From Candidatus Sulfotelmatobacter sp. (GTDB lineage Bacteria > Acidobacteriota > Terriglobia > Terriglobales > Acidobacteriaceae): a DNA stretch of 37,358 nucleotides. Both the position numbers and the translations under genes were made by a program. The notes under the pieces are model-generated. The model made no database searches. It was not told the origin of the DNA and worked only from the letters and a program-made list of their open reading frames with translations. The stretch covers positions 1 to 37,358 of the forward strand of contig JASHNU010000106.1 of NCBI GenBank assembly GCA_030041475.1, in the 5' to 3' direction. Below are positions 582 through 20,761 of the stretch, piece by piece (within the stretch, counting starts at the first letter, position 1; every line of letters begins with the position of its first letter).

Positions 582-605
582 CATTCAGCGGCGGTTCAGT
601 TTGGT

Positions 606-710: not shown

Positions 711-739
711 AACTGACTCACTACCAGATTTGTTTCCCA

Positions 740-1615: not shown

Positions 1616-1624
1616 GCGGTTGTT

Positions 1625-1686: not shown

Positions 1687-1727
1687 CCATGGGATGCCCC
1701 ATAGCCTGCCCTGAGCTTGCCGAAGGG

Positions 1728-1787: not shown

Positions 1788-1874
1788 GTATAGCTCCTGT
1801 ATTTGATTCTGGGCTTCGGCCCCTGAGGCCTTCGATTCATACGTTAATCTCATCGCGCCGCCCAATTGTAACTG

Positions 1875-1917
1875 GTCGGGTCAGCGGCTAGCGAACCCGA
1901 CGATACGGCGCTAGAAT
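1875..1917 (+). promoter_or_regulatory. inverted repeat and -10-like box before the small membrane protein
   Basis: A perfect 7-bp inverted repeat (GTCGGGT at 1875-1881 and ACCCGAC at 1895-1901, 13-nt spacer) lies just upstream of TAGAAT (1912-1917), a -10-like hexamer about 36 bp before the start codon at 1953. I do not see a good -35. The repeat lies where an operator would be placed, but a hairpin remnant of a dispersed repeat is equally possible. Confidence 0.3.
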
Positions 1918-1952
1918 GTCTCAACGCACTCTTAGGGACAACGGAGTCGCAC

Positions 1953-5824: not shown

Positions 5825-5914
5825 GCCCTTCGATTCTAGCAGGATTGCTGAATGGCAGATTCTAGGATTCTGAGGGCAATTGCGGTCTTGTACCAACCAT
5901 GGTGAACCGCAGGT

Positions 5915-6604
5915 CTAGCGCGGCGACTCGGCAAGTATCAGGTACTCACGCCCGTGGGACTGGATCAGGCGGTATTTTATGAACGCCACGTCGATCATCC
6001 GCAAAATATTCCTTTCCAGCTCTTGATCTATTCTGTCGTTGTAACTGAGAAGACGGATAATACGCCCGTAGAAGAAGGCAACCGCCTTCCCAACTCGGCC
6101 GGATGGGATCGAAAGTACCCCGCCGAGTTTTGGAGGAAAGTAGCCAACCAAGAAGACGCCGCCCGGGCGAAGCACTCGGCGGACCTCGTCCAGAACCCGC
6201 TGAGGTTCGGGGAAGTGACGCCACGCGCCCATGCAGGTAACCACATCGAAGCAACAGGGGCTGAATGGAAGTGCAGCCGCATCAGATTGGATGAGTCGAA
6301 TGGTTCTAGTGGTCGGGTTCAGACGGCGGAGTGATTCAAAAGAAAAATCCAACCCTATAACGCAGAACCCTTCCTCGTCCAGCCGACGGCTGAGAGCGCC
6401 CGTCCCGCAAGCCATGTCGAGAACCTTGATGCCGCACTCAGCGCCAAAGTGTTCTCTGACGGCAGCTGCCATCTTTCGAATGTGTGGCAAATGATCTGTG
6501 AACACTAATTCATAGAAGGGAGAAACCCGATCATAGAAAACTTGCGTGGAGCGCGAAGTTGCGGTAATAACGGCCAATTTCAGCAGCAGGCGTAGGCTAC
6601 GCAT
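5915..6604 (-). CDS. class I SAM-dependent methyltransferase (1)
   Basis: A UbiE/Methyltransf_11-type enzyme of 229 aa. Motif I is VLDMACGTGALSRRL (about residues 61-75), the acidic end of beta-2 is IGLDFS (about 83-88), the post-motif segment is SDAAALPFSPCCFDVVTCMG (about 106-125) and motif III is VLRPGGVFLVGYFPP (about 143-157). The substrate is not predictable. The start ATG overlaps the stop of the upstream methyltransferase in an 8-bp ATGCGTAG overlap, so the two are probably translationally coupled. Both are A+T-richer and lack the strong C-bias of the + strand seen in mfd and the neighbouring hydrolase, which suggests acquisition as a unit. Confidence 0.85.
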   Translation of the reverse strand: MRSLRLLLKLAVITATSRSTQVFYDRVSPFYELVFTDHLPHIRKMAAAVREHFGAECGIKVLDMACGTGALSRRLDEEGFCVIGLDFSFESLRRLNPTTRTIRLIQSDAAALPFSPCCFDVVTCMGAWRHFPEPQRVLDEVRRVLRPGGVFLVGYFPPKLGGVLSIPSGRVGKAVAFFYGRIIRLLSYNDRIDQELERNILRMIDVAFIKYRLIQSHGREYLILAESPR

Positions 6605-7412
6605 GACGTTTCCCGACGTAGTAGATGCGAACCGGGAAGAGAGATACGTGGCTCACCTTTGTGTACTCGATGCTCAATGACGGCGCGAGTTTCAGATACT
6701 TGCTCAGGGCAATCGGTCGGCAGTGAGGTGCGTAGCCCGCAAACAGAAATTTCCAGATACCGTTCCATCTGCCTCGGTGGTATCCCAGGCAGTAGAGTTC
6801 GTTTGTGACACGGCACAGAAACCGCGCCGGCCAAGGCATGTCGCCCAGTTCCGTAGTCATGGTTATCAAAATGGCATGGCCATCCGGAGCCAGGACGCGC
6901 TCCATCTCCTTCACGGTCGAGTCAATCTCCTCGTCATTCAACAGATCGAACAAATAACTTGAGACGTAGAGGTCGAAAGTCCCATCGGAGTAAGGAAGAC
7001 GCCTGCAATCGCTTCTCACGAAGAGAAGGGCGGAGGAGAGAAGATCCTTCTTCGTTAAATAGTTCTTGGCCGAGAAAATCATTTGGGGCGAAAGATCAAC
7101 CGCGCTGATTGTTCTTGCATTCTTGGCCCCCTTTACCAACTGGGCTAGGAAATACCCGGTCCCAACGCCCGCTTCCAGGACGTTTGTTGTTCTCTCCAGC
7201 ACGGGACCGCGTAGTGCGGCCCTGTTCGACCAGCGTTCGTGAAAACCCATGATCCAGTCGTAGAAGGGATACGGATTGGGAATAACCTTCAAGAATTTAA
7301 GCGGCCGGCTGATCGTCTCGAATTGATTAGCGACCGCGACGGATGAGCCATACCAGACAGGGACTTGGCGGTATCCGAAGCCGCGGAAATAGTGTCGAAT
7401 CGCTTGCCACAT
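6597..7412 (-). CDS. class I SAM-dependent methyltransferase (2)
   Basis: A 271-aa class I methyltransferase. The SAM-binding glycine loop is NVLEAGVGTGYFLAQLV (about residues 77-93), with AVDLSPQMI following (about 104-112), then RSDCRRLPYSDGTFDLYVSS (about 132-151) and ERVLAPDGHAILITM (about 170-184). The N-terminal 70 residues are aromatic-rich (YPFYDWIMGFHERW), as in small-molecule or lipid/quinone methyltransferases. It lies 19 bp downstream of the DDAH-like hydrolase and overlaps the next methyltransferase by 8 bp, so the three probably form one transcript. Base composition resembles methyltransferase 1 more than the hydrolase. Substrate unknown. Confidence 0.83.
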   Translation of the reverse strand: MWQAIRHYFRGFGYRQVPVWYGSSVAVANQFETISRPLKFLKVIPNPYPFYDWIMGFHERWSNRAALRGPVLERTTNVLEAGVGTGYFLAQLVKGAKNARTISAVDLSPQMIFSAKNYLTKKDLLSSALLFVRSDCRRLPYSDGTFDLYVSSYLFDLLNDEEIDSTVKEMERVLAPDGHAILITMTTELGDMPWPARFLCRVTNELYCLGYHRGRWNGIWKFLFAGYAPHCRPIALSKYLKLAPSLSIEYTKVSHVSLFPVRIYYVGKRHA

Positions 7413-7431
7413 TTAGGTTCCAGGAAATTAC

Positions 7432-8421
7432 TCACTCCGTCACCAGCGGACGCGTCAGGCACGTCGGGCCGCCACTGCCGTTGATGCAAATCTCGCTCCC
7501 CGCAAACGTTCTCACATCGAACCCGGCCCGCCGCAGCCGCTCATTCGTCCTCTGATTCTCTTCGATCGCCAGCAATCGCCCGCCGCCGAGAGCGAGCACA
7601 TTGCAGGCCAGCGTCTGCCGCTCCGCCGCGTCAATCTCGATAAACCCATACCCGCGCGCCTTTAGCAGCTCGATCGTCTCGACTGCCAGCCACGCCGAGT
7701 CCACCAGCGCCGTCTGCGCATCGAGCAGGCTTATGAGCGACATCAGATGCAAACACTCCCCCGGCCCCGCGCCATGCGGCAGCGGCGCCGCAATCACCTC
7801 CACGCCCTTCGGCGCGAGCAGCGCCCGCATCTGCTCAATCCCCGCCGCATTCGTACGATACCCGCGCCCGACGAGCAGCGTCTTCGCGTCTACCCACAAC
7901 ATATCTCCGGCCTCCGTCGTCCCCGGCGCCATAATCGCGCCCAGAATCGGAGTGCCCATCCGCCGGAACAACAATTCCTGGCTTCTGCTCTCCACAACGC
8001 GATTCGCCTTCCCCGGCCGCATCACGATCACACCAAAGTCCGTCGCCAGCGACGCATCGTGCGCGTACACCGCATCCAGCGTGAGCTCGCCCAGCGTAAG
8101 TTCGTCCAGAGGAAGCTCATCTCCCGCGAGATCAGCGCCAGATTCCGCACGAAGCCCCGCACGTAGCCCCGCCACAAGCTCCACTACCTCAGCTCCCGCC
8201 GCCCTCAGTTCGCGACATAGCGCCTCATGTTCCGCCTGCGCCTTCGCCGCATCCGGAGCATGCCGGAACCCGAGCTCCCGCCAGCGCGCCGCGCGCTCCG
8301 CCCGATCCCACCCCGCGCCTCGCGGAGAACACACCAGCACCCGCCGCAGCACGCCCACCATGCTGTGCCCATTCAACGCAGATTGATTCTTTGGAAACCT
8401 CGCCTCGGAAACCGCCGACAC
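7432..8421 (-). CDS. DDAH / arginine-deiminase-fold amidinohydrolase
   Basis: A guanidino-group-modifying enzyme of the dimethylarginine dimethylaminohydrolase / amidinotransferase superfamily; DDAH converts methylarginines to citrulline plus methylamines. In this 329-aa protein I see the substrate-side segment VYAHDASL (about residues 118-125), TTEAGDMLWVD with the catalytic acidic residue (about 168-178; EGGD is more usual), GRGYRTN (about 185-191), the catalytic His in CLHLMS (His225) and the catalytic Cys in GGPTCLTRPL (Cys321). The GTG at 8421 has GGGGAG 6 nt upstream; ATG at 8361 (residue 21) is the alternative start. An acidic tandem stretch ELPLDELTLGELTLD (about 102-116) looks like a short internal duplication. 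Two methyltransferase genes follow. The substrate (methylarginine, arginine or another guanidine) cannot be read from the sequence. Confidence 0.82.
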   Translation of the reverse strand: MSAVSEARFPKNQSALNGHSMVGVLRRVLVCSPRGAGWDRAERAARWRELGFRHAPDAAKAQAEHEALCRELRAAGAEVVELVAGLRAGLRAESGADLAGDELPLDELTLGELTLDAVYAHDASLATDFGVIVMRPGKANRVVESRSQELLFRRMGTPILGAIMAPGTTEAGDMLWVDAKTLLVGRGYRTNAAGIEQMRALLAPKGVEVIAAPLPHGAGPGECLHLMSLISLLDAQTALVDSAWLAVETIELLKARGYGFIEIDAAERQTLACNVLALGGGRLLAIEENQRTNERLRRAGFDVRTFAGSEICINGSGGPTCLTRPLVTE

Positions 8422-8493
8422 GCCGCGCTCCCCGGCCGTTCCGGCCGCGGAACGATTCTAGCAGCGACCCTGCACAACACGGCGCTCTGTGTT

Positions 8494-8557
8494 CCGTGGA
8501 AGAGCGGCGCTTCAGCGCCGCGTACGCGATCGAAAAGGTGGAGGGCTTTAGCCCCTG
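8494..8557 (+). repeat. dispersed palindromic repeat, family B, copy 1
   Basis: A CCGTGGAAGAGCGGCGCTT...GCGCCGCGT hairpin (8494-8523) is followed by a second palindrome GGGCTTTAGCCC (8543-8554). The same two-hairpin arrangement recurs at 9718-9781 and inverted at 18037-18098 and 33140-33201, with a partial copy near 10,853. It lies between the starts/ends of two minus-strand genes. Non-coding. Confidence 0.75.
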
Positions 8558-8578
8558 TGGACACTCCAAAACACCTTG

Positions 8579-8725
8579 TCATTCCGAGCGCAGCCTTACC
8601 GCGCGAGGAACCTGCTTTTGATCGTCATCCTGAGGAGGGGGCTTTTGCCCGACGAAGGACCTGGGCGAGCCGCGCGATGCGCGAGTTCGTTGCGCGCAAC
8701 AACCGCGCCCTTGGCTCGCTTCCCT
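8579..8725 (+). repeat. family A repeat, copy 2, preceded by a GTCATTCCGAGCG unit
   Basis: First unit (8579-8620): GTCATTCCGAGCGCAGC, then GCGCGAGGAACCTGCTTTT, very similar to 10,618-10,660. Second unit (8624-8725): GTCATCCTGAGG, GACGAAGGACCTGGGCGAG, a variable GC-rich core, then TTGGCTCGCTTCCCT (8711-8725), matching copy 1 at 606-710. The right end supplies part of the stop codon of the PilZ gene (8724-8726), so the element sits exactly at the gene's 3' edge. Confidence 0.75.
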
Positions 8726-9470
8726 ACTCCGCGTATTCCACCGCCGCATCTTCCTGAGGCAGCAGACTCCGCGCCCCATGCCCAGCCCGATGATGATGCG
8801 CCCGGTTCTCCGCGCTCCTTCGCCCCAGCCACTGCTTCAGACTCTTGCGCGCCGCCGGCGACATCTGCGAAAAAAACATTCCCGCCCGCCCCCGGTCGCT
8901 CGCCCAGATCACCTCCGCATGCCCTTGTATGCTCGCCGTCGACCCCGGCAACACGCAGCGGAACACCATCTCACCGCTCATCGGCACCGGCTCGGTCGCC
9001 TGCACCGCCAGCCCATGTTCGCTGATGTCCAGGCTGATCGCCGTCAGCTCGCGCTTCTCGCACTCCAGGTGCACCAGCGTCTTCATCTCGTAGCGCGCCG
9101 CCTTCCGCGGATGCCGTTTTCCCTGCGCCTTCAGCGCCTCCTTCACCTGCTCCTCCGCAATCGGACGATACAGGATCCGGCTCGCCCCCGAATGGAATGC
9201 CTCGCCCGTGCCCGGCCACGCCCGGCTCGCCACTGCCAGCAGCGTCGGCTTCTGTGCCGGAGGCAGCAGCGCCGCCATGCGCACCACCTCCTCCGCACCC
9301 GGCAAGTCAAAGTCCACGATGAGCGTGGAGCACCTCCCCGCCACCACCATCTCCAGCGCCTCCTCGCCGCTCACGCACGGCAGCAACCGCATTCCAAAAT
9401 CCGCCAGCGTGGTTCGTAACGTTGCCAGCGACCGATTATCCCGGCACAACACCGCAGCTGATTGACGCAT
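8724..9470 (-). CDS. degenerate receiver + PilZ domain protein
   Basis: A 248-aa two-domain signalling protein. Residues about 5-115 have a CheY-like receiver pattern (AVLCRDN, LIVDFDLPG with a possible phospho-Asp at about 53, GASRILYRPI), but the usual conserved Lys is Arg in YRP and the acidic pocket is reduced to Asp-Asn, so phosphorylation is uncertain. Residues about 120-220 are a PilZ domain: RKAAR fits the c-di-GMP RxxxR motif and DISEHG fits the DxSxxG motif. A likely role is a c-di-GMP effector acting on motility or envelope functions. The C-terminal 30 residues are His/Arg-rich and end at the edge of a family A repeat whose sequence supplies the stop codon. Transcribed alone. Confidence 0.8.
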   Translation of the reverse strand: MRQSAAVLCRDNRSLATLRTTLADFGMRLLPCVSGEEALEMVVAGRCSTLIVDFDLPGAEEVVRMAALLPPAQKPTLLAVASRAWPGTGEAFHSGASRILYRPIAEEQVKEALKAQGKRHPRKAARYEMKTLVHLECEKRELTAISLDISEHGLAVQATEPVPMSGEMVFRCVLPGSTASIQGHAEVIWASDRGRAGMFFSQMSPAARKSLKQWLGRRSAENRAHHHRAGHGARSLLPQEDAAVEYAE

Positions 9471-9938
9471 AAGCCCAACTTACGGTGCAGCCCCGCTCCG
9501 GTAAAGTCACACGCGTAATCGCCTCCCCGGTTACCAAAGCCCCCTTTACCGCACGAAGAAATCTGCCCGCTGGGACGAAGCATTGTCATCCCGAGCAACG
9601 CGGAGCGACTGCGACGCCGCCTCGAGGGATCCCTATGGCTGCCCGAGAAGCATGTGGGACGGCCCTCAGACCCGTCGATGCGTCCCGGCCCGCTTCGTAT
9701 CGGACCCGCTCGGGTTTCCGTGGAAGAGCGGCCCTTTAGGGCCGCGTAAGCGGCCGAAATCCTGACGGGCTTTAGCCCCGGTGCGCACAGAGGCGGCTTC
9801 AACCGACCTCAACCCTTGTCAATATGCAAAAATTACCCGATCCCACCTAACGCACTGATTCCATTCCCAAAAAATACCCTCCCTCCCTTTCCGGTTTACT
9901 CTTCCCAATTTGGTATTCTAAAAATATAGACACAAATC
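9471..9938. repeat. repeat-rich intergenic region with family B copy 2
   Basis: No gene is seen. At about 9587-9640 there is a GTCATCCCGAGCAACGCGGAGCG-type unit followed by CTCGAGGGATCCCTATGG. Family B copy 2 is at 9718-9781: a CCGTGGAAGAGCGGCCCTTTAGGGCCGC hairpin followed by ACGGGCTTTAGCCCCG. From about 9815 to 9938 the sequence becomes markedly A+T-richer than the surroundings (runs of A, CCCTCCCTCCC, TTCTAAAAATATA), like a promoter region or the edge of transferred DNA. Confidence 0.6.
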
Positions 9939-9971
9939 AAGGCGCGGCCTCCGGGTCGCGCCTTTTCTTTT
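9939..9971 (+). terminator. terminator-like hairpin upstream of the endonuclease gene
   Basis: AAGGCGCG (9939-9946) pairs perfectly with CGCGCCTT (9957-9964) across a 10-nt loop, followed by TTTTCTTTT on the + strand, the form of a Rho-independent terminator. No + strand gene lies upstream between 9471 and 9938, so it either ends a short non-coding transcript started in the A+T-rich stretch before it, or acts as an attenuator for the gene at 10024. Confidence 0.5.
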
Positions 9972-9993
9972 GCGCTTTTTGGCGTTCAGAGGG

Positions 9994-10021
9994 CTCTGGG
10001 GTCCAAGATCTGGGGTTCAGG
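9994..10021 (+). repeat. 14-bp tandem repeat before the endonuclease start
   Basis: CTCTGGGGTCCAAG (9994-10007) is followed directly by ATCTGGGGTTCAGG (10008-10021), three mismatches, ending 2 bp before the ATG at 10024. The second copy contains the only Shine-Dalgarno-like AGGA. Confidence 0.6.
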
Positions 10022-10023
10022 AA

Positions 10024-10509
10024 ATGACGCGATGTAAGGGGTTCCCGACGTTTAAGCAACGCGGCGAGTGGGTCGAGCTGAAATTCATGGCCAAGGCGGC
10101 CGAGCACGGCCTGCAGGTCCTCAAGCCCTGGGGCGACTCCCTCGCCTACGACGTCGGCCTCGACCCCGGCCGCGGGCTCCTCCGCGTCCAGGTCAAATCC
10201 ACTTCCGTCCGTACTCAGTACGGATACCTCTGCCAGTTCAAGCCCGGCGCCCTCAGCCACCGCCAGTACACCGCCAAGCAAGTCGACTTCTTCGCCGCCT
10301 ATGTCATCCCCCAGGACGTCTGGTACGTCATCCCCTCCGCCGAGCTTTTCAAGCGCCGCCAGCAAGCCATCACCCTTTGCCCCATCGAACCGCTCCATCC
10401 CGAGCGTTACCGCTTCGAGCAGTTCCGCGAAGCCTGGCAACTGATGCGGCGCGGCCGCTGCGTCAACTGCCGTCTGATGATCGAGACGAAGCGAGCAGAA
10501 GGCGAATGA
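10024..10509 (+). CDS. PD-(D/E)XK endonuclease, I-Ssp6803I-like (group I intron-associated family)
   Basis: About 161 aa. The nuclease core is readable in order: KQRGEWVELKFMAKAAEHG (helix with the Glu), PWGDSLAYDVGLD (the Asp), then RVQVKST (the QxK strand), then DFFAAYVIPQDVWYVIP. This order of E, D and QxK and the trailing aromatic WYVIP strand are typical of the PDDEXK_5 family that includes the cyanobacterial intron homing enzyme I-Ssp6803I. A C-terminal CVNC pair follows about 20 residues later. ATG 10024 is preferred; a TTG at 9970 in frame would translate the terminator tail and tandem repeat. No host intron or tRNA is visible, so it appears free-standing. The + strand is strongly C-rich here, matching the left half of the window, so it is not a very recent arrival by composition. 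Confidence 0.72.
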   Translation: MTRCKGFPTFKQRGEWVELKFMAKAAEHGLQVLKPWGDSLAYDVGLDPGRGLLRVQVKSTSVRTQYGYLCQFKPGALSHRQYTAKQVDFFAAYVIPQDVWYVIPSAELFKRRQQAITLCPIEPLHPERYRFEQFREAWQLMRRGRCVNCRLMIETKRAEGE

Positions 10510-10611
10510 GCGACCTCGTCGGAATTTTTCATTCCGAACCCGAGCGAAGTCGAGGGCAGAAATCTGGGTTGCCCCACCCTTGTCGTGCTCTTTGCGACTG
10601 GGTAACCAAAC

Positions 10612-11293
10612 AGACTTTGTCATTCCGAGCGCAGCTTCATCGCGCGAGGAATCTGCTTTTCCCGCCGATCGAAGATGCGCGAACGGGAAGGACACGGCTT
10701 CAGTTCTTAAGCCTGCCCTGAGCGACCCGAGGAACGAGGGGAGCCGAAAGGATCCGCCCTGCGGAGCGAAGCTTCCGCATGGTGCGTGCCCGCGTCGTCC
10801 GCAAATCTGTCATCCCGAGCGGAGCGGGATCGTTTGCAAAAGGATCCTGTAGTCCCGTGGAAGAGCGGCCCTTTAGAGCCTGCCCTGAGCAAGCGCAGCG
10901 CGTCGGGGCCGCGTCAAGCGAGGGAAAAAAGAGAACAACTCCACTCTGCCGAAGGCTACTGCCGAGTGCGTGCCCGCGTCGTCCGCAAATCCGTCATCCC
11001 GAGCGGAGCGGGATCGTTTGCAAAACGATCCTGCACAGTCGAGGGACCCTGTGCTGCACCGGGCGGTGGCGAAGCCTTGCCATCGCCGAACGCCAGCCCC
11101 GGAGGGGCGGCAGATGATAGCCCCGGACGGAAGTCCGGGGTAGTCGAGAGAAAAGAAAAACAACTCCACTCTGCCGAAGGCCGTTGCCGGAGAGCGAAGC
11201 TCGCAGGCAACACAAACATTCCGCGCGTTCGTCGAAGCCGGCCGCCGCGCCGAACGGGAAGGGCGCGGCTTCAGCTCTTAAGCCTGCCCTGAG
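10612..11293. repeat. mosaic block of duplicated dispersed repeats
   Basis: Non-coding. Direct repeat 1: 10681-10722 and 11252-11293 (42 bp, GAACGGGAAGG...CCTGCCCTGAG, about 3 mismatches). Direct repeat 2: 10782-10849 and 10966-11033 (68 bp, GTGCGTGCCCGCGTCGTCCG...GATCCTG, about 2-3 mismatches). Direct repeat 3: 10934-10956 and 11159-11181 (AACAACTCCACTCTGCCGAAGG, then C). It also contains a partial family B unit (about 10,853-10,890), a GTCATTCCGAGCGCAGC unit (10,618) and a perfect hairpin with 8-bp arms and a GGAA loop at 11121-11140. Weak open frames cross it on both strands but are explained by lack of stops in GC-rich repeats. Confidence 0.8.
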
Positions 11294-11506
11294 GCGTCTG
11301 GCCCACCCTTTCGGTGGCGTTGTTTCTCGCGGACACAATCCGCGCCGAGGGCGCCCCATCCTTCGCACCTTTGGCGAAGGGTGGGAGGCACGGGCTACAA
11401 TTATCAATGCTTGGACTTCCAGCAGGATAGCAACGAGAAACCCCAATCCTCCGATAGGGACGCGCTCGCCCTCGGAAAGCCCCCTGCCTCGCAACAGCCG
11501 CAGTCT

Positions 11507-12394
11507 ATGTTCGAACCACCCGCCAAGTCTCCGGTACTCCAGCAGAATGTCACAGTCCCACCACCCGACAATCCCACAGGCACCGAGGAAAATCAGGAAC
11601 CAACCATAACGCCAGTAAGAATCGTGAATAGCCCGTTGCTCACAAGGATCATAGAAGATGGCGGGATGAAGGAATTTGAGTGCCTGTCCCTTCGCTGGTC
11701 GCGGCTCAACGTCATATTCGTAGCTGCTACCCTCATCGCAATCCTCGTAACGGCAGCTGTCTTTTGGGGTCAATGGCAGGAAATGGCTAACCAAACCGAC
11801 CTTCTCAATATCTCTGCTCGACAGGCTAGAAGAGATTCGGCGGAGGCCAGCATTACTACCCAAAGGCAAATTGCCATCGCCCAACAGCAAGCGAAAGCGG
11901 CTCAAGATAGCGTGAAAGCCACCCAGCGACAGGTGAGCATTAGCCAAAGACCGTGGGTAAACGCTGAAAGGTTCGAGGCCGAAAGAGTTGTTTTGCCTCC
12001 AAGCGGCGCTTTTAACATCTATGGCCATCTGTGGATGAAGAATACTGGAGTATCTACTGCAAAAGATGGATGGACTATGATGACCGCGTTCCCAAACAAT
12101 ACCGCTCTGCTCAACCAGCACTGGGATGAAGCGTGTAAACTGCTCGATAAGAACAAGCGCGGTTCCAAACTTGCGGCACGAAGAAGGGCAGGGGATGTGT
12201 GGCCGATTGGTTTTGTATTGGCTCCCAACCAAGACGCTCCATCTGGATTTTCTATAGGCATGGCTATTGGGACAGAGGTTAGGCCGCAAGACTTGTCCAA
12301 TGGGTTCTATCTGCTGGGGTGCACTAGATACAGAGATCAATTTGAGCAACTGCACACCACTCGTTTCTGTTTCACTCCTAATAAACTGCCATAA
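11507..12394 (+). CDS. single-pass membrane protein with coiled coil, unknown function
   Basis: I do not recognise a named family. From ATG 11507 the protein is 295 aa: a Pro-rich N-terminus (PPPDNPTGTEENQEP), a conserved-looking segment IVNSPLLTRIIEDGG, one transmembrane helix LNVIFVAATLIAILVTAAVF (about residues 68-87), then a Gln/Ala-rich coiled coil (about 105-145) ending in SISQRPWVNAERF, and a soluble C-terminal domain. Many bacterial hypothetical proteins share this helix + coiled coil + RPWV layout. The start is uncertain: GTG 11381 extends the frame into repeat-like DNA, and ATG 11666 just before the helix is another option. No good ribosome binding site is seen. Composition is A+T-richer and less skewed than hslUV, suggesting an accessory gene. 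A long antisense frame covers it but lacks protein-like features. Confidence 0.62.
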   Translation: MFEPPAKSPVLQQNVTVPPPDNPTGTEENQEPTITPVRIVNSPLLTRIIEDGGMKEFECLSLRWSRLNVIFVAATLIAILVTAAVFWGQWQEMANQTDLLNISARQARRDSAEASITTQRQIAIAQQQAKAAQDSVKATQRQVSISQRPWVNAERFEAERVVLPPSGAFNIYGHLWMKNTGVSTAKDGWTMMTAFPNNTALLNQHWDEACKLLDKNKRGSKLAARRRAGDVWPIGFVLAPNQDAPSGFSIGMAIGTEVRPQDLSNGFYLLGCTRYRDQFEQLHTTRFCFTPNKLP

Positions 12395-12405
12395 TAAACT
12401 GCCAT
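12380..12405 (+). repeat. 13-bp tandem duplication across a stop codon
   Basis: AATAAACTGCCAT occurs twice head-to-tail (12380-12392, 12393-12405), perfect copies. The stop codon TAA of the preceding gene (12392-12394) is formed at the junction of the two copies. Confidence 0.85.
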
Positions 12406-12560
12406 ATCGTGAGAATTGGCTGGTCGAATCCTTTACTTTTGAAACCTGCAACGCTTTTGCTACTGCTGACTGACAAGCCAAACGCTAGAAAGGCGAGGGC
12501 CGAGGCCCAAATTAGGACACCACCTGCCCCGGCGCTTAGGCCCCTCCAGCCCCGACACAT

Positions 12561-12569
12561 TGCTATAAT
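12561..12569 (+). promoter_or_regulatory. extended -10 promoter element for hslV
   Basis: TGCTATAAT is a consensus extended -10 (TGnTATAAT). A start of transcription about 7 nt downstream would fall near 12576, only about 8 nt before the hslV ATG (12584), with no Shine-Dalgarno sequence in between. No clear -35 is seen, as is common for extended -10 promoters. Confidence 0.6.
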
Positions 12570-12583
12570 CAAAAATTGCCCTT

Positions 12584-13126
12584 ATGAGCGCCAAGCGACT
12601 GATTCGTTCCACGACCGTTCTGTCTGTGCGCCGCGGCGGAAGTGTCGTTCTCGCCGGCGACGGACAGGTCACGCTGGGTGAGTCCGTCATCAAGCACACG
12701 GCTAAAAAGATCCGCCGCCTCTACAACGACAAGATTCTGTCCGGCTTCGCCGGATCGACCGCCGACGCTTTCACTCTGTTCAGCCGCTTCGAAGGCAAAC
12801 TCGAGCAGTATCACGGCAACCTGGGCCGCGCCGCCGTGGAACTCGCCAAGGACTGGCGCACCGACAAGTATCTGCGCCACCTCGAGGCCCTGCTGCTGGT
12901 CTGCGACAAAGAGCAGACGTATCTGCTCAGCGGCCAGGGAGACGTGATTGAACCCGACTCGGGCATCGCCGCCATTGGCAGCGGCGGGCCCTACGCCCAG
13001 GCCGCGGCCACAGCCCTGGCCGAGCAGACGCAGCTCTCCGCCCGTCAGATCGCCGAAGAAGCAATGAAGATTGCCGGCAAAATGTGCATCTATACGAATG
13101 ATCAGGTAACGATCGAGGAGCTTTGA
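12584..13126 (+). CDS. hslV: ATP-dependent protease peptidase subunit HslV (ClpQ)
   Basis: The N-terminal-threonine peptidase of the HslUV complex: two hexameric rings capped by HslU. 180 aa. The family core starts [20 protein letters not shown]; by alignment with known HslV the catalytic Thr is residue 10, so this protein carries a nine-residue leader (MSAKRLIRS) that must be removed to free the nucleophile. [28 protein letters not shown] and [15 protein letters not shown] (about 127-141) follow family pattern. The promoter appears to be 15-20 bp upstream with almost no 5' UTR. hslU follows after 154 bp that are filled largely by an inverted repeat, so co-transcription is likely but coupling is loose. 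Confidence 0.96.
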
Positions 13127-13152
13127 TCTTGGGATAACCGCCAGCCGCTTAG

Positions 13153-13276
13153 GTTCATGTAGGGACAGCCGCCCTCGGCTGTCCCGGCCGGGTCGAAGAC
13201 CAGGCAATATGAAAGTCAGGACATGAGTCGAGCTTTATTCGACCGGACGGCCGAGGGCGGCCATCCCTACATGAAC
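13153..13276. repeat. long inverted repeat between hslV and hslU
   Basis: The left arm 13153-13184 and right arm 13245-13276 are 32 nt each and match at 29 of 32 positions as an inverted repeat (outer ends GTTCATGTAGGGA / TCCCTACATGAAC). An inner pair GGTCGAA / TTCGACC extends the stem toward a small loop region. No transposase is inside, so it resembles a MITE or a BIME-type palindromic element. The right end stops 4 nt before the hslU ATG, so the element occupies the place of the hslU ribosome binding site. Confidence 0.85.
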
Positions 13277-13280
13277 ATTT

Positions 13281-14714
13281 ATGGCCATCTATCTACCCTC
13301 CGCCGCCGAAGAAGAACAGCTCGCGCTGGATGAGCTCACGCCGCGCGAGATCGTCGCCGAGCTCGACAAACACGTGATCGGCCAGAAGGACGCCAAGCGC
13401 GCCGTCGCCATCGCGCTGCGCAACCGCATGCGCCGCCAGAAACTCGCGCCCGACCTCGCCGAAGAAATCCTCCCCAAAAATATTTTGATGATAGGGCCGA
13501 CGGGAGTGGGGAAGACGGAGATTGCGCGGCGGCTGGCGAAGCTGGCGAACTCGCCCTTCCTGAAAGTGGAGGCGTCGAAGTTTACCGAAGTGGGGTACGT
13601 GGGGCGCGACGTGGAGTCGATGGTACGCGATCTGGTGGAGATCGCGATTGACGGAGTGCGCGAAGAAAAGCTGGGCGACGTGGCGGACAAGGCGGAGCTG
13701 AACGCGGAAGAGCGGCTGCTGGATATTCTGCTGCCGCCGACACCGGCGCCGCGTCCGGAGCCGGGCGCGACTGCCGGCGGGGTGGTGATTGATGGCAGCA
13801 CGGCGCTGGCGGAGCCGTCGTCTTCTTCTTCGGCCAGCCGCACGCGGGAAAAATTGCGTCAGCAATTGCGCGAAGGAAAGCTCGACGAGCGGATGGTCGA
13901 GATCGACGTGCGCGAGCGCAACTTCCCAAGTTTCGAAATCATCAGCAACCAGGGTGTGGAGGAGATGGACGTCAACATCAAGGACATGTTGCCGAACATC
14001 TTCGGGCAGCGGACGAAGAAGCGGAAGATGAAGGTAAACGAGGCCTTCGAATATCTGATCCAGGAAGAAGAGCAGCGGCTGATTGATATGGATCACGTGA
14101 CGCGGATTGCAATCGACCGCGTGGAGAATTCGGGGATCGTGTTTCTGGATGAGATCGACAAGATCGCCGGGCGCGAAGGCGGGCACGGGCCGGACGTTTC
14201 GCGCGAGGGCGTGCAGCGCGACATTCTGCCGATTGTCGAGGGCACGACGGTGAACACGCGGTACGGCATGGTGCGCACGGATCATATTTTGTTCATTGCG
14301 GCGGGGGCGTTTCATGTGTCGAAGCCGAGCGATCTGATTCCCGAGCTGCAGGGGCGGTTTCCGATCCGGGTGGAGCTGCGGTCGCTGACCATGGAAGATT
14401 TTGTGCGGATTCTGACGGAGCCGAAATCGTCGCTGGTGAAGCAGTACACGGCGTTGCTCGATACCGAAGGCGTGAAACTGGACTTCACGCCGGAGGCGCT
14501 GGAGGAAGTGGCGCGGTTTGCGTTTCGCGTGAATGAGAATACGGAGAACATTGGGGCGCGGCGGCTGCATACGATCATGGAGCGGGTGCTCGATGAATTG
14601 AGTTTTGACGCGCCGGAGAAGAAAGGTCAGCAATACACGGTGGACGCGGATTATGTGCGGAAGATGCTGACCGATATTGTGAAGGATCAGGATTTGAGCC
14701 GGTATATTCTGTAG
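13281..14714 (+). CDS. hslU: ATP-dependent protease ATPase subunit HslU (ClpY)
   Basis: The AAA+ unfoldase that feeds substrates to HslV. 477 aa, some 30 longer than the E. coli protein. Visible: N-terminal [17 protein letters not shown], Walker [10 protein letters not shown] (about residues 73-81), pore loop GYVGRD (about 105-110), Walker [13 protein letters not shown] (about 285-296), [14 protein letters not shown], sensor region [14 protein letters not shown], and the HslV-activating C-terminal tail SRYIL. The extra length is a Pro/Ser/Ala-rich insert in the I domain ([10 protein letters not shown] ... EPSSSSSAS, about 151-190). No Shine-Dalgarno precedes ATG 13281 because an inverted repeat ends 4 nt away. 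Codon choice changes inside the gene: up to about base 13,480 it prefers C-ending codons (GCC, CGC, GGC, ATC), afterwards G-ending ones (GCG, CGG, GGG, GTG). Its 3' end overlaps the convergent VWFA gene by 28 bp. Confidence 0.97.
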
Positions 14715-16726
14715 ATGATGCCCTCTTCTATTTCTCCCGCTGAGGCGATGTTGTTTCGGGCAACGTTGGTGGAATCGGGCCGGACATGGCTGGCTGCCTC
14801 CACGCGGGCGTTGTAGCCTTTGCGCACGTGCACGTGCAGATGCTCACCCTTCTTCTCGGCAGCGACGCGGACGGGGCGAAATTTCCCGTTGGGGACGAAA
14901 TCGGCCGGGCGGTAGACGACCAGGTAACGACTGCGGATCAGTTCTTTGAGGTGATCAAGGGACTTGTCCAGCGTTTGCATATCACCGGGGAAGATGCTCT
15001 CGCCGCCGCTGCGCTCCGCCAGTACCTGGAGGATGTTGTCGGCGTCGGTTTCAGGGCGATAATGCTCGGTTGTGCTGACAGTGTAAATGGTGACGCCTGC
15101 CCGTTCCGCTTCCGCGATGGCCTGCTTGAGACTGCGGTGGCTGGAATTGTCTTCGCCATCGGTGAGGACGACCAAAACCCGCGCCACGCGGTCGTTCTCG
15201 GGATACGCAGCCAGCTTCCAGCAGGCGAAGGAAACGGCGTCAAACAGCGCAGTTCCTCCGCCGTTGGTGAGTTTCCGAATCCCCTGCCCAAGCTTTCCCG
15301 GCTCGGCGGTGAAATCCTGGGTCACATTGTTGTCACCGCTGAAACCGATGACGAAAGCGAGGTCGAGGTCCTGATTGAGCACTTTCTCGAGGAACCTTTG
15401 GGCCGCGCGCTTCTCAAACGAGAACCGGTCGACTACCGAGCCGCTGGTGTCAATCAACAGACCCAGTCGCAACGGAAGCTTCGATTGCGGGATGAATTGC
15501 ATGACCCTCTCCGGAGCCTTGTTGTCGTCATGAATTTGAATGTTGGAAAGTTCCAGATCATTCACCATGCGCCCGTGACTGCTGACGGCGAAGAATAAAG
15601 CAGTCTCGTCCACCGCCTTGTGAATCGTATACAGCCCCCCGGAAATGGCTGGAGCAGACAGAGTGGTGACGGTTGAGTTGGTGGCGCTGGCTAAGTTGGC
15701 GGTTTTCTCGGAGGGAGCGTTGGGCTCGGTCTCGCCGGCGGGCTCACGGGTCACCGCGTTCAGTTCTGCCCGCAGCCGATCACTGTTGGGGAAGGTCTGA
15801 ACGGGCCCGGAATTACCTGCGGTGGTGGCGGGTGAACCGACGGCAGCTGAGGGTTGAGCCGCAGCAGCCAGCTGCCGGGCGAGTTGATCCAGGTATTTGT
15901 GCGCGGCGGGAGCCAGAGGGTTGGTGGGATCTTCCGCCAGAAAAGTGGTCAGCTGCTGCTGCGCGACGTCGTAATTTTTGAGATTGATGGCAGCACTGGC
16001 AGCGATGTAATGCACGTTCGCCATCCCGCGATGATCGATGGCATGGACTCGCTGCACGGTCTCGAGCGTCTCCTCGTACTGATGGTTTCCGTTCTGGGCA
16101 AATGCCAACGCGACCAGGATCTTCGGGTCTTTCGCGTTCAAAGAAGCGGCTTTTTCCAGATAGGGAGTCGCGGCCGCAAAATCGTTGGCCTGAAGTTCGA
16201 GCATGCCGAGATTCAGGAAGGAGCCGGGAAATTTGTCGTCCAGCTTGGCTGCTGTCTCGAATTCGTCCTTGGCGCGTGCATCCTGCTGGTCGCAGTAGGC
16301 AAGACCGAGAGTGTTGTGAGCAAGAACGAACTTGGGGTAGGCAGCGATCGCTTTCTGGAGGTGTACGATCGCCTCTTTGGCTTTCTGCTCTTTCATCAGA
16401 GTGGCGGCGGTGTTGTATTCCTGTAGCGCCTTGTCGGACGCGTTAAGGTCCAGGGCTGACACGACCCCGGTGTCGACCAAACGCTTTCTTTGCTCTCTTT
16501 GCTCAACGTATTTCTCCTGCTCCTTGTTCGCCGTGTCCAAATATATCTGTGCAAAGTCTATTTGACTGGCACCCAGTCCGCCGTTCATGAAGGGGATCGA
16601 GCCATAGCTCTGCGCGTGGGCGGGCAGGCCGCAGCAGAAGCAAACAGCAAGCGCGGATGCCAGCAGGCGCAGCGCGGAGGGGAACGAACAGAGAGACCAG
16701 CAGGAACGAAATGGCGTTGTAGTCAT
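14687..16726 (-). CDS. secreted TPR + VWFA-domain protein (acidobacterial VWFA type)
   Basis: 679 aa. A signal peptide spans residues 1 to about 38 (hydrophobic [18 protein letters not shown], cleavage probably after AHA). TPR-like helices run from about 100 to 275 ([20 protein letters not shown] and similar), followed by a Ser/Thr/Ala-rich linker. The C-terminal von Willebrand A domain has the MIDAS motif DTSGS (about 425), a threonine in [10 protein letters not shown] and TDGEDNSS (about 521), as in the VWFA-related domain family expanded in Acidobacteria. Probably a periplasmic or surface protein-binding scaffold; no enzyme is implied. The ATG has TTGGAG 7 nt upstream. It converges on hslU with a 28-bp overlap, and its own upstream neighbour is the DUF2207-like gene on the same strand, 119 bp away. 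Confidence 0.88.
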
Positions 16727-16845
16727 AGGCGTGCTCCAACGACTTCATTTAGGACGGCACGCGAGCCCGCCCGGTAAGCGGGAAGTATTGTGGACCAGTT
16801 CCGGCAGGGAGTCAATGGTCACAAACGGCGGTCCGCTTCACGTAT

Positions 16846-17973
16846 TTATCGCAAATGCAGGTCGAGGATTTCCTGGCTGGCGCGGGCTTCTTCGGGACAA
16901 TTGTTTTCGATGCTGGATATGGCGGACTGGGGGCCGAGGCGATTGAGGACGGCGGCGGCGAACTGCTCTCCCCAGGCGTGCTCGACGTCGAGGGCGAGGG
17001 CCCAGGCCCAATATTTCTCTGCTGCGGGCGAAGGCGCGTTGGGGGCGTTGACGCGATTCACCCGGTCGGACTCGACCGCGGCGAAAAACATACGAAAATC
17101 GGCTAACTGGTGCAGCAAGGCGTGACCGGCGAAGGTGGGAGCGCGGAAGGCCGTGGAGCCGACGAGGTTCACGCTGACGAACGAGCCGAATAGCGCGGCA
17201 AGCTGCCAGGAACTGGCCCAGCCGATTACGGCGAGCGAGGCGAGGGAGACGAGGAACATGAGGGGCGCGGTGCGATCGCTCTTGACGAAGCGCAAGGGGT
17301 GCGGAGTTCCGCCGGGGAAACGGCTTTTGATCTTGTAGAACGTTGCAGGGAGCGTGCGGGTGATCGCCAGCAAGGACCAGACGGCGATTAATGCCGGCAG
17401 TACCAGTAACGCAATGGGGGCGTTGGAGTTTAGCAAGCCTTGAATTTCGGGATAGAGCGCGCCCAGAAAACACCAGAAGGAGACAGTGAGAGCGGGGACG
17501 AGAAATGGGAAATGGGGAGAGAGCAGGTCCGGTTCGACGACGGATTCGAGCGCATCGTGGACGTTGCGCGCGATTTTTTCGAGTAGGAACAGTCTAGAAA
17601 GGAGTGCGGAGGACGAGTCCGCGCGAAAAAGTGCGTTGGCGATGATTTCTTCTTCGGCTTCGAGAGGGACCGAAGGATTGACGCGGGAGATCAAGTAGTC
17701 CGAGGGGCCTTGCTCGATCTTCAAATATCCTTTGGCGGCCATGTTGACGATGGCGACTATGAAGGGCTTGTCGCTGACTCCGCGGTTGAGCAGGTATGAG
17801 GCGACGGCGGGAGAGATGCCCTTGGGTGGTTCGTAGCTGGCCACGCGCGTGCCGGTACGGGGGCGCCAGCGCAGAGCGATGCTGGCGAGAACGAAGTATA
17901 GGCCGACGGCGCCCACGCCGTACCAGGCCAACATCTGCTCGGCGGAAAGTGCGGCCGGGGTCATCGTTTTCAT
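16846..17973 (-). CDS. DUF2207-type membrane protein, lacking the N-terminal domain
   Basis: 375 aa from ATG 17973. It opens with a transmembrane helix (AWYGVGAVGLYFVLASIAL), then YEPPKGISPAVASYLLNRG and AIVNMAAKGYLKIEQ, which match the cytosolic half of DUF2207 (YciQ-like) proteins. Two more hydrophobic clusters follow (LVPALTVSFWCFLGALY / IALLVLPALIAVWSLLAI, and MFLVSLASLAVIGWASSWQLAALFG), then WAWALALDVEHAWGEQF, also a family signature. Usual members have a signal peptide and an extracytoplasmic domain before the first helix; here it is missing. Function unknown. Other possible starts are ATG 17964 and TTG 18000; none has a good ribosome binding site. The + strand is strongly G-rich although the gene is on the minus strand. 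Confidence 0.75.
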   Translation of the reverse strand: MKTMTPAALSAEQMLAWYGVGAVGLYFVLASIALRWRPRTGTRVASYEPPKGISPAVASYLLNRGVSDKPFIVAIVNMAAKGYLKIEQGPSDYLISRVNPSVPLEAEEEIIANALFRADSSSALLSRLFLLEKIARNVHDALESVVEPDLLSPHFPFLVPALTVSFWCFLGALYPEIQGLLNSNAPIALLVLPALIAVWSLLAITRTLPATFYKIKSRFPGGTPHPLRFVKSDRTAPLMFLVSLASLAVIGWASSWQLAALFGSFVSVNLVGSTAFRAPTFAGHALLHQLADFRMFFAAVESDRVNRVNAPNAPSPAAEKYWAWALALDVEHAWGEQFAAAVLNRLGPQSAISSIENNCPEEARASQEILDLHLR

Positions 17974-18036
17974 TTTGATTGGGAAAAGGAGGTGGGCCAA
18001 GTTACGTCGGTGCGGCGCAGCGGTTGGCTCCTTCCA

Positions 18037-18098
18037 GGGCTGAAGCCCCCTGTTCTTTCCGGTGGTTTACGCGGCGCTGAAGCGCCGCTCTTGCACGG
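18037..18098 (-). repeat. family B repeat, copy inverted
   Basis: GGGCTGAAGCCC (18038-18049) and GCGGCGCTGAAGCGCCGC followed by TCTTGCACGG (18071-18098): the reverse-complement of the two-hairpin unit seen at 8494-8557 and 9718-9781. It lies between divergently transcribed genes, where promoters for both would be expected. Confidence 0.72.
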
Positions 18099-18158
18099 AG
18101 TGGCGGATGGCGGTGGTGCAGGTCTGTTAGTCTGTTTTCTTCTCGTTGTTTCATCCGC

Positions 18159-19382
18159 ATGAGACTTTCAGCCAGCAGGGTAATTGCGCTCGCGGCGCCG
18201 CTTTTTTTGGCGGGGTGCGCGTCGATGGGGCCGCCGCGGCCTCCGTCGCTGGAACTGCCGAAGGCGCCGACGGATCTGCGGGCGACGCGCAAGGGCGATC
18301 GAGTGACGCTGACGTGGACGGTACCGACGATGACGACGGACCGTCAAAGGATGCGCAGCGTGGGGCCGACGCGCATCTGCCGCGGAGTGGGCGCGGTGCT
18401 CAAGGAGTGCGGCACGCCCGTGGGTGAGGCGGCAGCAGCTCGCGGCGGGACGGCGGGCGAAGCGCCTTCGCCGCGGATTAAGGCGGCCGCGACAAAATCG
18501 GAAAAGAAGAATGCTGTCGAGGAGACATATACGGACACGCTTCCGGAGGAGTTGCAGAGGTCGAATGCTTCGGGCTGGGTGACGTATGCCATTGAAGTGC
18601 TGGGACCGGATGGGCGAGGAGGGGGGCTTTCGAACGCGGTGCGTGTGCCGTCGGTGCCGTCGGCTCTGCGGATCGAAAATTTTGATGCGCAGATTACGGC
18701 GCAGGGTGTGCAGGTTACGTGGAAGCTCGGGGCGGGCGGGAGCGTCGGACCGTCGTCGTCTGCCCATTGTCTGTTGCGAATCTACCGTGAGCTGTACGCC
18801 ACGTCGCCGGCAGGCGCGGCGACGGAGGAAGCTTCCACGGCAAGAATTCCGACGCAAGAGAAGGTTGCTGATCTTGATCTGAAGCGCTGCGTGAGTGTAG
18901 TTCAGCAATCGCCACCGGCTGGTGAGGCAGCCGCGAATCCGACGAGCTATCTGGATCAGCATTTCGAGTGGGAGAAGACGTATCTTTACCATGCGACCAT
19001 GGTGACGCTCATGGCGGAGGCGGGCAAACCGGAGTTTGCGTTTGAGGGCGGGGACACGCCGTTGGTCACGGTGTTTGCGCATGACGTGTTTCCGCCGGCG
19101 GTGCCAACGGGGTTGCAGGCGGTGTTTTCGGGGCCGGGGCAGCAGACGTTTATTGATTTGATCTGGGCGCCGGTGATGGATATGGATCTGGACGGGTACA
19201 ACGTGTATCGGCGCGAGGAGGGAGCGGCGCCGGTGAAGGTGAATGGGGAACTGGTGAAGACGCCGTCGTATCGGGACACGAGCGTGGCGACGGGGAAGAC
19301 GTATTTTTATTCGGTGTCGGCGGTGGATGTTCGTGGGAACGAGAGTGCGCGATCGGAAGAGACGAGCGAGAGAGTGCCGTGA
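18159..19382 (+). CDS. lipoprotein with fibronectin type III repeats
   Basis: 407 aa. The N-terminus is a lipoprotein signal (MRLSASRVIALAAPLFLAGC) with lipobox LAGC and acylation at Cys20. Three fibronectin-III-like segments follow: about residues 35-150 (PTDLRATRKGDRVTLTWTVP), about 165-280 (IENFDAQITAQGVQVTWKLG) and about 305-405 (PTGLQAVFSGPGQQ, LDGYNVYRREEG, KTYFYSVSAVDVRGNES). The first two are interrupted by Ala/Gly/Glu-rich inserts. Probably an outer-membrane or periplasmic adhesion or carbohydrate-associated protein; no catalytic domain is seen. No Shine-Dalgarno is evident at ATG 18159. The gene is divergent from the DUF2207-like gene and is followed by a stem-loop. Confidence 0.8.
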   Translation: MRLSASRVIALAAPLFLAGCASMGPPRPPSLELPKAPTDLRATRKGDRVTLTWTVPTMTTDRQRMRSVGPTRICRGVGAVLKECGTPVGEAAAARGGTAGEAPSPRIKAAATKSEKKNAVEETYTDTLPEELQRSNASGWVTYAIEVLGPDGRGGGLSNAVRVPSVPSALRIENFDAQITAQGVQVTWKLGAGGSVGPSSSAHCLLRIYRELYATSPAGAATEEASTARIPTQEKVADLDLKRCVSVVQQSPPAGEAAANPTSYLDQHFEWEKTYLYHATMVTLMAEAGKPEFAFEGGDTPLVTVFAHDVFPPAVPTGLQAVFSGPGQQTFIDLIWAPVMDMDLDGYNVYRREEGAAPVKVNGELVKTPSYRDTSVATGKTYFYSVSAVDVRGNESARSEETSERVP

Positions 19383-19396
19383 ACCCACGGCAAAAT

Positions 19397-19445
19397 CCCC
19401 ACCCTGTCGCGGCCTTTTTATTAAAACCACGCGACGAGGGTGGGG
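19397..19445 (+). terminator. long stem-loop after the FN3 lipoprotein gene
   Basis: CCCCACCCTGTCGCG (19397-19411) pairs with CGCGACGAGGGTGGGG (19430-19445) with one bulged base; the loop contains TTTTTATTAAAA. It starts 14 bp after the stop codon and can serve as a transcription stop. The sequence GTTGCCCCACCCTTGTCG at about 10,568 resembles its reverse complement, so it is also a dispersed-repeat relative. No T-run follows the stem. Confidence 0.55.
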
Positions 19446-19479
19446 CAACCACATGCTGAATGTGGTTAGATAGAAACCT

Positions 19480-20280
19480 ATGAGATATTGCCGGTTTCAA
19501 TTCAATGGGCAGGCGCAATATGGGCTGGTCGAGTCGGTGGGCGGGCGGGATGCAATTGTGCGGATTCTGCTGACGCCGCCGGAAGAGGCCGACGGGGACA
19601 TGGAGAGTTTGCGGACGCGGCGGATTGAGGCGATTCCGCTGGAAGAGGCGACGCTGCTGGTGCCGGTGCGTCCGTCGAAGATCGTGTGCATGGGGCGGAA
19701 TTATCGCGAGCACGCGGCGGAATTGGGGAATGAAGTGCCGAAGGAGCCGCTGATTTTTTTCAAGCCGACTTCGTCGCTATTGGCGCCGGGGGGTACGGTG
19801 CGGCGTCCGAAGCTTTCCGAGCGCGTGGACTATGAGGGCGAACTGGCGGTGGTGATTGGAAGGACGTGCTACCAACCTGCGGCGGATGCGGACATCCGGC
19901 AATACATTCTGGGATACACGGCGGTCAATGACGTGACGGCGCGCGATCTGCAGAAACAGGATGGGCAGTGGACGCGGGCCAAGGGATTCGACACGTTCTG
20001 CCCGGCGGGGCCGCTGGTGACCGATGAGATAGATCCATGGGCAGGGGTAGGAGTGGAGACACGCGTGAATGGCGGGGTGCGGCAGCATGGGAACACACGC
20101 GATTTTATTTTTCCGCTGGAAGTGGTGATCCGGTACATCGCGCAGGCGATGACGTTGTATGCGGGCGACCTGGTGCCGACGGGAACGCCGGCGGGCGTGG
20201 GGCCGGTGGTGGCTGGAGATGTGATGGAAGTCAGCGTGGAGGGAGTGGGGACGCTGAGGAATCCGGTGGTGGATGAGTAG
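19480..20280 (+). CDS. fumarylacetoacetate hydrolase (FAH) family protein
   Basis: 266 aa. The fold has a short N-terminal domain plus the FAH catalytic domain. Motifs: [16 protein letters not shown] (about residues 68-83), [14 protein letters not shown], the metal-binding [12 protein letters not shown] (about 116-127), [14 protein letters not shown] (about 148-161), [11 protein letters not shown] (about 172-182) and the terminal [14 protein letters not shown] (about 228-241). The family includes acylpyruvases, oxaloacetate decarboxylases and 2-hydroxyhepta-2,4-diene-1,7-dioate isomerases; the exact substrate cannot be read. Metal ligands (two Glu, one Asp) are present, so it is likely active. 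The leader carries no evident Shine-Dalgarno. Confidence 0.9.
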
Positions 20281-20488
20281 CTGGCAGCGATCGGCACTCA
20301 GTAGCCAGCCAGGGCGCATGTCTGCTGAGTGCTTAGTTGTAACAGGCAAGACTTGGCCGCCCGTCATCCGCTCATACGCAGGGAATCATGCAAACGGCCG
20401 GTTGGCCTCGACAGCATGCCAGCTTGTTGGGGTGGGAGCACCTTTTCAACCATAGAATCTGCTACCATCACCGTTTGGTGAGGTTGCC

Positions 20489-20761
20489 ATGCCGCAATAC
20501 GTGATCGAGCGGGAGATCCCCGGCGCCGGTAGTTTAACGGATGCGGAATTGCAGGCTGTCGCCAGAAAATCGGTCGGTGTGTTGAAGGAATTGGGACCGG
20601 AAATCAAGTGGCTCCACTCCTACGTGACGGGCGACAAAGTGTATTGTGTGTACCTGGCACCAGACGAGGAAACGATTCGCGAACATGCACGCCGCGGAGG
20701 TTTTCCGGCGAATCGCATTTCAGCCGTCCGCCGCATGATCGATCCCGATACCGCAAATTAA
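20489..20761 (+). CDS. DUF4242 family protein
   Basis: 90 aa, a complete small ferredoxin-like-fold protein: YVIEREIPGAGSLTDAEL, GPEIKWLHSYVTGDKVYCVY, REHARRGGFPANRI. These are typical DUF4242 features; a streptomycete member (SCO4226) has been described as nickel-binding, but whether this one binds metal is unknown. GAGG lies 5 nt before the ATG, a good ribosome binding site. The stop TAA shares a TTAA palindrome with the stop of the convergent kinase gene (4-bp overlap). The 208 bp upstream hold no other gene. Confidence 0.85.
   Translation: MPQYVIEREIPGAGSLTDAELQAVARKSVGVLKELGPEIKWLHSYVTGDKVYCVYLAPDEETIREHARRGGFPANRISAVRRMIDPDTAN

Follow-up and report, generated by a model that had tools for sequence, protein, structure and literature searches.

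Gene content and strand composition of the window

The window is an entire contig (C82, 37,358 bases) of a 4.63-Mb draft genome in 112 contigs (G000), and it carries an intact hslU gene preceded by hslV, with an inverted repeat between them. Genes were called with a script that is a crude ORF chooser, not a gene finder. The features used below are as follows.

1..13480, no strand: left domain in which the + strand is C-rich; fourfold skew −0.39 in purE, −0.49 in mfd, −0.61 in an ADI-like gene, −0.80 in a PilZ gene, and −0.37 in hslV
12584..13126, + strand: hslV, HslVU peptidase subunit, 180 aa; NF003964, 287.6 bits; third bases C-rich, as on the left side
13153..13276, no strand: inverted repeat of 124 bases between hslV and hslU; arms at 13,153–13,184 and 13,245–13,276
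13281..14714, + strand: hslU, ATP-dependent protease ATPase subunit HslU, 477 aa, intact; TIGR00390, 659.8 bits (cut-off 362.45)
13478..13490, no strand: flip of + strand third bases from A/C-rich to G/T-rich at hslU codons 66–70, placed by change points and codon alignment
13481..20500, no strand: right domain in which the + strand is G-rich; fourfold skew +0.42 in hslU (whole), +0.23 in a VWA-TPR gene, +0.56 in DUF2207, +0.68 in an FN3-like ORF, and +0.75 in FAH
27601..37358, no strand: second G-rich stretch with comEC, a tRNA methyltransferase gene, an HI0933-like gene, and others; − genes have a keto (G/T) fraction of 0.62

The far end of the right domain, near 20.5 kb, was taken from the keto change-point search. 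The blocks of strand bias are discontinuous, because patches at 5.9–7.4 kb (two methyltransferase genes), 9.9–12.5 kb, and 20.8–26.1 kb are near neutral; the first two are also lower in GC (0.54 and 0.51, respectively) and may be newer arrivals. ORFs in the segment 9937–12481, which has low GC and neutral skew, have no Pfam match, and those at 10,994–12,481 and 11,381–12,394 have no NCBIfam match either; this segment is possibly a recent insertion between the PilZ gene and hslV. It also contains a match to the Acido-Lenti-1 RNA (RF01687, 53.2 bits) at 11095–11140 on the − strand. Another genus member, G110, is likewise near neutral to the left of hslV (194–197.8 kb of its contig C2), and its acnA step (191.8–193.9 kb) adjoins a near-neutral segment reaching hslV.

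The repeat between hslV and hslU is one copy of a REP-like dispersed element, its arms having 46 other matches in the genome (one of which is its own inverted half and one a short match outside the repeat). It is not required for the flip, because the hslV–hslU gap in G110 is only 81 bases long. The neighbors of the flip are hslV and the VWA-TPR gene, with no replication gene among them.

A codon-level flip in third-base composition within hslU

On the + strand there are 44 C and 31 G in 13,381–13,500 and 36 C and 78 G in 13,501–13,680, a recount that reproduces exactly the figures of the original prediction. That prediction had also described a switch in synonymous codon choice within hslU and a contrast in base composition between its two sides extending over kilobases in genes of both orientations, and both descriptions hold. 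Change points in third bases lie at 13,487 for G versus C (log-likelihood ratio [LLR] 273) and at 13,481 for keto versus amino bases (G/T versus A/C; LLR 210), corresponding to hslU codons 67–69 and directly preceding the Walker A codons, with GPTGVGKT beginning at codon 72. In + genes the keto fraction of third bases rises from 0.42 on the left of the flip to 0.72 on its right (up to 20.5 kb), and in − genes it rises from 0.39 to 0.61; the bias follows the chromosome strand, not the gene strand. The cumulative skew of the window has its minimum (−3.08) in the row for 12,501–13,500, and the local switch runs from negative to positive, which is the sign seen at an origin.

Skew in 1-kb windows has a standard deviation of 0.139 in the window, compared with 0.066 in contig C43 and 0.078 in contig C57 of the same genome, and change points with a contrast above 0.2 number one in C43 (240 kb; LLR 49) and two in C57 (140 kb; LLR 77 and 53). 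The hslU flip is nonetheless not unique in this genome, as the 5-kb contrast at 71.6 kb of C57 is 0.256, compared with 0.271 at hslU; this second upward jump lies at 71.3–71.6 kb (L026). The window itself also has a downward step at 20.6 kb that is equal at the 4-kb scale (−0.234 versus +0.233), and in this genome upward and downward jumps are asymmetric at 8 kb, not at 4 kb.

The flip recurs at the same codons in relatives

We assembled 81 hslU sequences (the window plus 80 loci), close relatives in the genome-collection scan bearing titles such as Candidatus Sulfotelmatobacter, Terriglobia, and Acidobacteriaceae. Strong change points (LLR of at least 10) are present in 13 of the 81, and 12 of these lie at codons 65–73; the exception, at codon 440, is in a more distant relative (L153). 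The sharpest is in L107, where G among G/C third bases rises from 6% to 83% and the keto fraction from 0.15 to 0.85, and where the bias spans about 6 kb on each side; the window's flip is weaker than the best of its relatives'. In the codon alignment, codons ending in A or C give way to codons ending in G or T at around codon 71 in the carriers, alongside genus members that have the same protein and no switch. We rejected chance or amino acid composition as the cause because of these same-protein members without a flip.

According to the original prediction, an origin would be refuted if relatives showed this hslU codon pattern with no skew switch around it. This is mostly not what we found: of the 12 strong carriers, 9 have 3-kb flanks that are negative on the left and positive on the right, L128 shows such a change only in its 10-kb flanks, and L121 and L122, for which the flanks are short, show none. 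The tables of loci and of genomes overlap (L128 and G110, for example) and hence are not independent. Two more distant relatives, L161 and L163, have hslU flanks that are strongly G-rich on both sides (+0.16 to +0.22) and no flip inside the gene; a skew jump may lie elsewhere nearby.

Within the genus, hslU is present in 44 of 45 genomes, and in 20 of the 30 genomes in which the flip was measured it is weak or absent; each locus search in the genus took in at most 30 loci. Strong hslU flips fall mostly in one clade of a midpoint-rooted FastTree tree (support values not shown), and also in G080, G000, and G164. Carriers differ from each other at 11–42% of third bases, yet the flip is still sharp. 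In 17 single-contig relatives, hslU lies about 70–782 kb from dnaA (with genome sizes rounded), and thus in the half of the chromosome nearer the origin. In a complete relative, G057 (5,650,368 bp), no change point lies within hslU, and the 20 stretches sampled, each of 20 kb, have a weak switch around dnaA and irregular signs elsewhere.

A second coding site in nrdJ and a jump at parA

A similar flip is present in a gene that we named nrdJ from its translated sequence, coding for a B12-type ribonucleotide reductase. It was found in 42 of the 45 genus genomes and measured in 29; among the 17 of 30 loci that were readable, 10 of 11 strong cases have their change point at codons 622–627, within the conserved protein motif TIGFMMDC. 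When both strands are read, 14 of 29 loci show a right-minus-left difference of 0.35 or more, and in G154 the flip has an LLR of 477. In the window's own genome, nrdJ is split between the end of contig C91 and the start of C38 at about codons 652–664, some 30–40 codons past the flip position; this contig break may be due to chance.

The G110 contig C2 (JABCZI010000002.1, 619 kb, analyzed to position 619,000) carries all of these loci together, with nrdJ at 5.5 kb (5,544), hslU at 198.8 kb (198,813), a parS cluster at 446.9 kb, and dnaA at 480 kb. Its skew rises in sharp upward jumps and declines slowly, a sawtooth that is also seen in the counts: in the first 599 kb there are seven upward and no downward jumps exceeding 0.18 with 4-kb flanks, six and none with 8-kb flanks, and three and none with 15-kb flanks, although downward steps do exist at gene scale. 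Besides hslU, the sharpest jump is that at nrdJ, and cumulative skew reaches its minimum at the end that carries nrdJ, with hslU forming only a local minimum. Forward and reverse genes agree over 53 bins (r = 0.60).

A broader jump lies at 446.7–446.8 kb, at the start of parA and beside six parS-like palindromes (446,850–447,196), 33 kb from dnaA. Clusters of the palindrome TGTTCCnnnnGGAACA precede parA in 15 of 16 genomes inspected, with none in G080; the middle letters within these clusters (that of G110 and L256–L284) are species specific and often co-vary within a cluster. We found parA in 33 of the 45 genus genomes at an E value of 1e-90, and the right-minus-left difference of its region is positive in all 30 in which it was measured, ranging from 0.01 to 0.47 and amounting to only 0.01–0.05 in four. 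The parS/parA region is probably the main origin. The asymmetry at hslU and nrdJ matches that at parA/parS in size, fading over 10–30 kb, and the strengths of the flips are correlated between genomes (hslU–nrdJ, rho = 0.57, n = 22, p = 0.006; nrdJ–parA, rho = 0.54, n = 20, p = 0.015; hslU–parA, rho = 0.39, n = 23, p = 0.07), all without correction for kinship.

How common such flips are was gauged in a census of 2.01 Mb from eight genus genomes, partly picked around known flips, using a cut of 0.40 over 80 third bases per side, which the window's own flip falls below. It yielded 12 upward and 2 downward flips, and six of the 12 upward flips are those of hslU (G110, G158, and G171) or nrdJ (G110, G171, and G154). 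Stretches of the G110 contigs C1 (200 kb) and C3 (160 kb), 360 kb in all, contain no keto change point above 0.2. On its contig C4, the segment 32–40 kb (L327) is strongly A/C-rich and rises from −0.35 to about 0, and an isolated parS-like site (40,065) lies close to where it ends.

Searches for an initiator, a shared motif, or a nuclease

The original prediction saw neither dnaA nor a cluster of DnaA boxes, and our searches agree: the best dnaA match in this genome is on contig C50, and the window contains three DnaA boxes with at most one mismatch (2.88 expected), the nearest about 1.45 kb from the flip, using the Escherichia coli consensus, which may not be that of this clade. With the same consensus, there is no DnaA box within 1 kb of the hslU, nrdJ, or parA flips of G110. 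None of dnaA, dnaN, parAB, or mnmG lies beside the switch at hslU; in the window's genome, parA is on contig C75, and the parS cluster is also on a contig other than the window's.

We considered parS as the cause and rejected it, because parS is absent from the hslU and nrdJ stretches searched and the keto fraction barely changes at three parS sites outside the cluster (0.39 to 0.47, 0.56 to 0.53, and 0.37 to 0.51, with one mild step beside the C4 site). A short motif was likewise rejected: letters resembling YATGATNGG are present at each of the coding flips, but of the seven TCATGATRG sites in the G110 contig C2 only one is at a flip. The flanks of hslU and nrdJ align with each other no better than shuffled sequences, and a k-mer scan gave no convincing common word. 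The intein splicing domain PF14890 was found in 0 of 45 genus genomes and LAGLIDADG_3 (PF14528) in 1 of 45, so that neither can be the agent in most genomes, and there is no insertion at the flip sites in the hslU and nrdJ loci read.

Interpretation of the flips

We propose, tentatively, that the flips may well mark secondary sites, fixed in position and lying around the main origin, at which replication starts. Two-way DNA synthesis would begin at the codon-level site in hslU, such that the + strand would be made as the leading strand to the right of the flip and as the lagging strand to the left, and strand-biased mutation would then shift third bases toward G/T on the leading side and toward A/C on the other. 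We favor a start of synthesis because the change occurs at a conserved codon-level point, the bias extends in both directions and is independent of gene direction, and its sign is that of a leading strand; secondary starts around a main origin are suggested because three such points lie on one contig. Judging from base composition, replication would be the cause of the bias and initiation would take place at these sites in living cells, so that a single bacterial chromosome may have several fixed points from which its copying begins. The hslU, nrdJ, and parS/parA loci are quite possibly at least three such putative sites in the genus. Rather more doubtful is the fullest form of this proposal, a natural chromosome with at least three fixed starts, two of them inside the hslU and nrdJ reading frames, and an initiator that would recognize conserved coding DNA rather than DnaA boxes.

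The origin reading of the original prediction thus survives in part. The sign of the switch, the agreement of both strands, the decay with distance, and the recurrence at the same codon in relatives are all in its favor; against it, hslU is one of several such sites, the G110 minimum lies at nrdJ, and dnaA and parS are on contigs other than the window's. Several observations count against replication starts: neither an E. coli-type DnaA box nor parS was found near hslU, nor a motif common to the flips; the asymmetry fades within tens of kilobases, unlike ordinary whole-replichore skew; the 360 kb of the G110 contigs C1 and C3 lack keto change points above 0.2; most genus genomes measured have a weak hslU flip or none; downward steps exist at gene scale; and many right-half genes in the window are head-on to the supposed fork, as had been pointed out and as our count bears out. 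Single-species changes, at face value and with a majority-rule polarity that favors this count, also run mostly away from the bias, with 16 G-to-A and 3 A-to-G changes and 9 G-to-C and no C-to-G changes on the right of hslU, and 22 C-to-T and no T-to-C changes on the left of nrdJ; these could represent fading.

The closest rival to secondary starts is replication started by a break, in which a site-specific break or nick at the conserved hslU and nrdJ motifs is followed by recombination-dependent synthesis outward in both directions and a bias of limited range. In its favor are the sharpness to the codon, the limited range of about 6 kb per side in L107, the location of the flips in those protein motifs that are most conserved (Walker A and TIGFMMDC), and the lack of origin features at the sites. 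We consider it unlikely, given the near absence of intein and LAGLIDADG_3 domains (the only nuclease families searched) and the lack of insertions in the loci read, and given that parS, which needs no break, shows an asymmetry of equal sign and size.

Alternatively, the flips could be fossils, with an ancestral main origin in hslU or nrdJ whose skew is now fading. Skew is a slow recorder, flip strength differs between species, and the drift of single-species changes away from the bias fits as well. This is improbable, however, since one contig carries flips of similar strength at hslU, nrdJ, and parS, the flip stays sharp among carriers as diverged at third bases as those described above, and the same codon would have to have served as origin in separate lineages.

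Two strong back-to-back transcripts starting inside hslU, with a transcription-linked bias, would give the same sign, and the G runs that follow the flip are prone to R-loops. We think this very improbable, because the bias spans many genes of both orientations over 10–30 kb and is common to forward and reverse genes, and a transcript running leftward from the flip would lie antisense to hslV and the first part of hslU.

An ordinary cause, be it an inversion end, a hybrid allele, or a chance local swing, has very little to recommend it: irregular skew is common in the order (the 20 stretches of the complete relative change sign repeatedly), and there are the comparable jump in C57 and the equal downward step in the window at the 4-kb scale, but the codon is conserved in 12 of 13 strong cases, a second conserved codon exists in nrdJ, the carriers come from several independent MAG sets, the inversion endpoint offered by the original prediction is untenable inside an intact, conserved hslU, and its single hybrid hslU allele conflicts both with the recurrence of the flip in diverged species and with the finding that the two halves of the gene diverge in step (Mantel r = 0.41 against a maximum of 0.27 in 500 shuffles, 30 genomes; shared base bias could inflate r).

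Whichever of these accounts applies, flips inside reading frames can, in Terriglobales, mislead programs that locate origins from skew as well as analyses of codon usage. Codon-precise, conserved sites provide exact, testable coordinates (hslU codon 72 and nrdJ codon 624), and should a break or nick be responsible, these conserved genes would harbor a DNA event that is both programmed and site specific. A search of the open-licence literature found no paper describing such a site, whether in Acidobacteria or in hslU, and none linking hslU with GC skew and a replication origin.

Comparison with known systems

The hslU switch shares with that at bacterial oriC its negative-to-positive direction, a G/T-rich leading side, and independence of gene strand. 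It differs in lying inside a reading frame, with no adjacent dnaA and no DnaA-box cluster found, in fading within tens of kilobases, and in being one of several per chromosome. Replication origins in the human genome are associated with skew jumps and N-domains, in which skew rises sharply, falls slowly, and is near zero midway. The same three traits are seen between the sites here, although in a bacterium, with a spacing of about 100–250 kb on one contig and at codon-sharp, conserved positions.

The typical GC skew given in SkewDB is about 2.5% (PMC8941118), whereas it reaches 20–28% in 1-kb windows here. A review describes a single origin in all bacterial chromosomes investigated (PMC7174701). 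The fused Vibrio cholerae strain NSCV1 has two active origins (PMC6284228), and thus shares more than one start per bacterial chromosome, which here is predicted from composition; its second origin is of a known plasmid type and derives from the fused second chromosome.

Several polarity changes per chromosome are also shared with archaeal multiple origins and with those proposed for bacteria. Xia 2012 proposed multiple origins for Wigglesworthia, Wolbachia, Synechocystis 6803, and Mycoplasma pulmonis (PMC3269012), and Gao 2015 described putative double origins and called for more evidence (PMC4403523). The adjacent replication gene and three DnaA boxes that Gao asks for are not present at hslU. 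The earlier proposals consist of whole-chromosome plots or DnaA-box sites, whereas the flips described here are fixed to a codon and traced across a genus.
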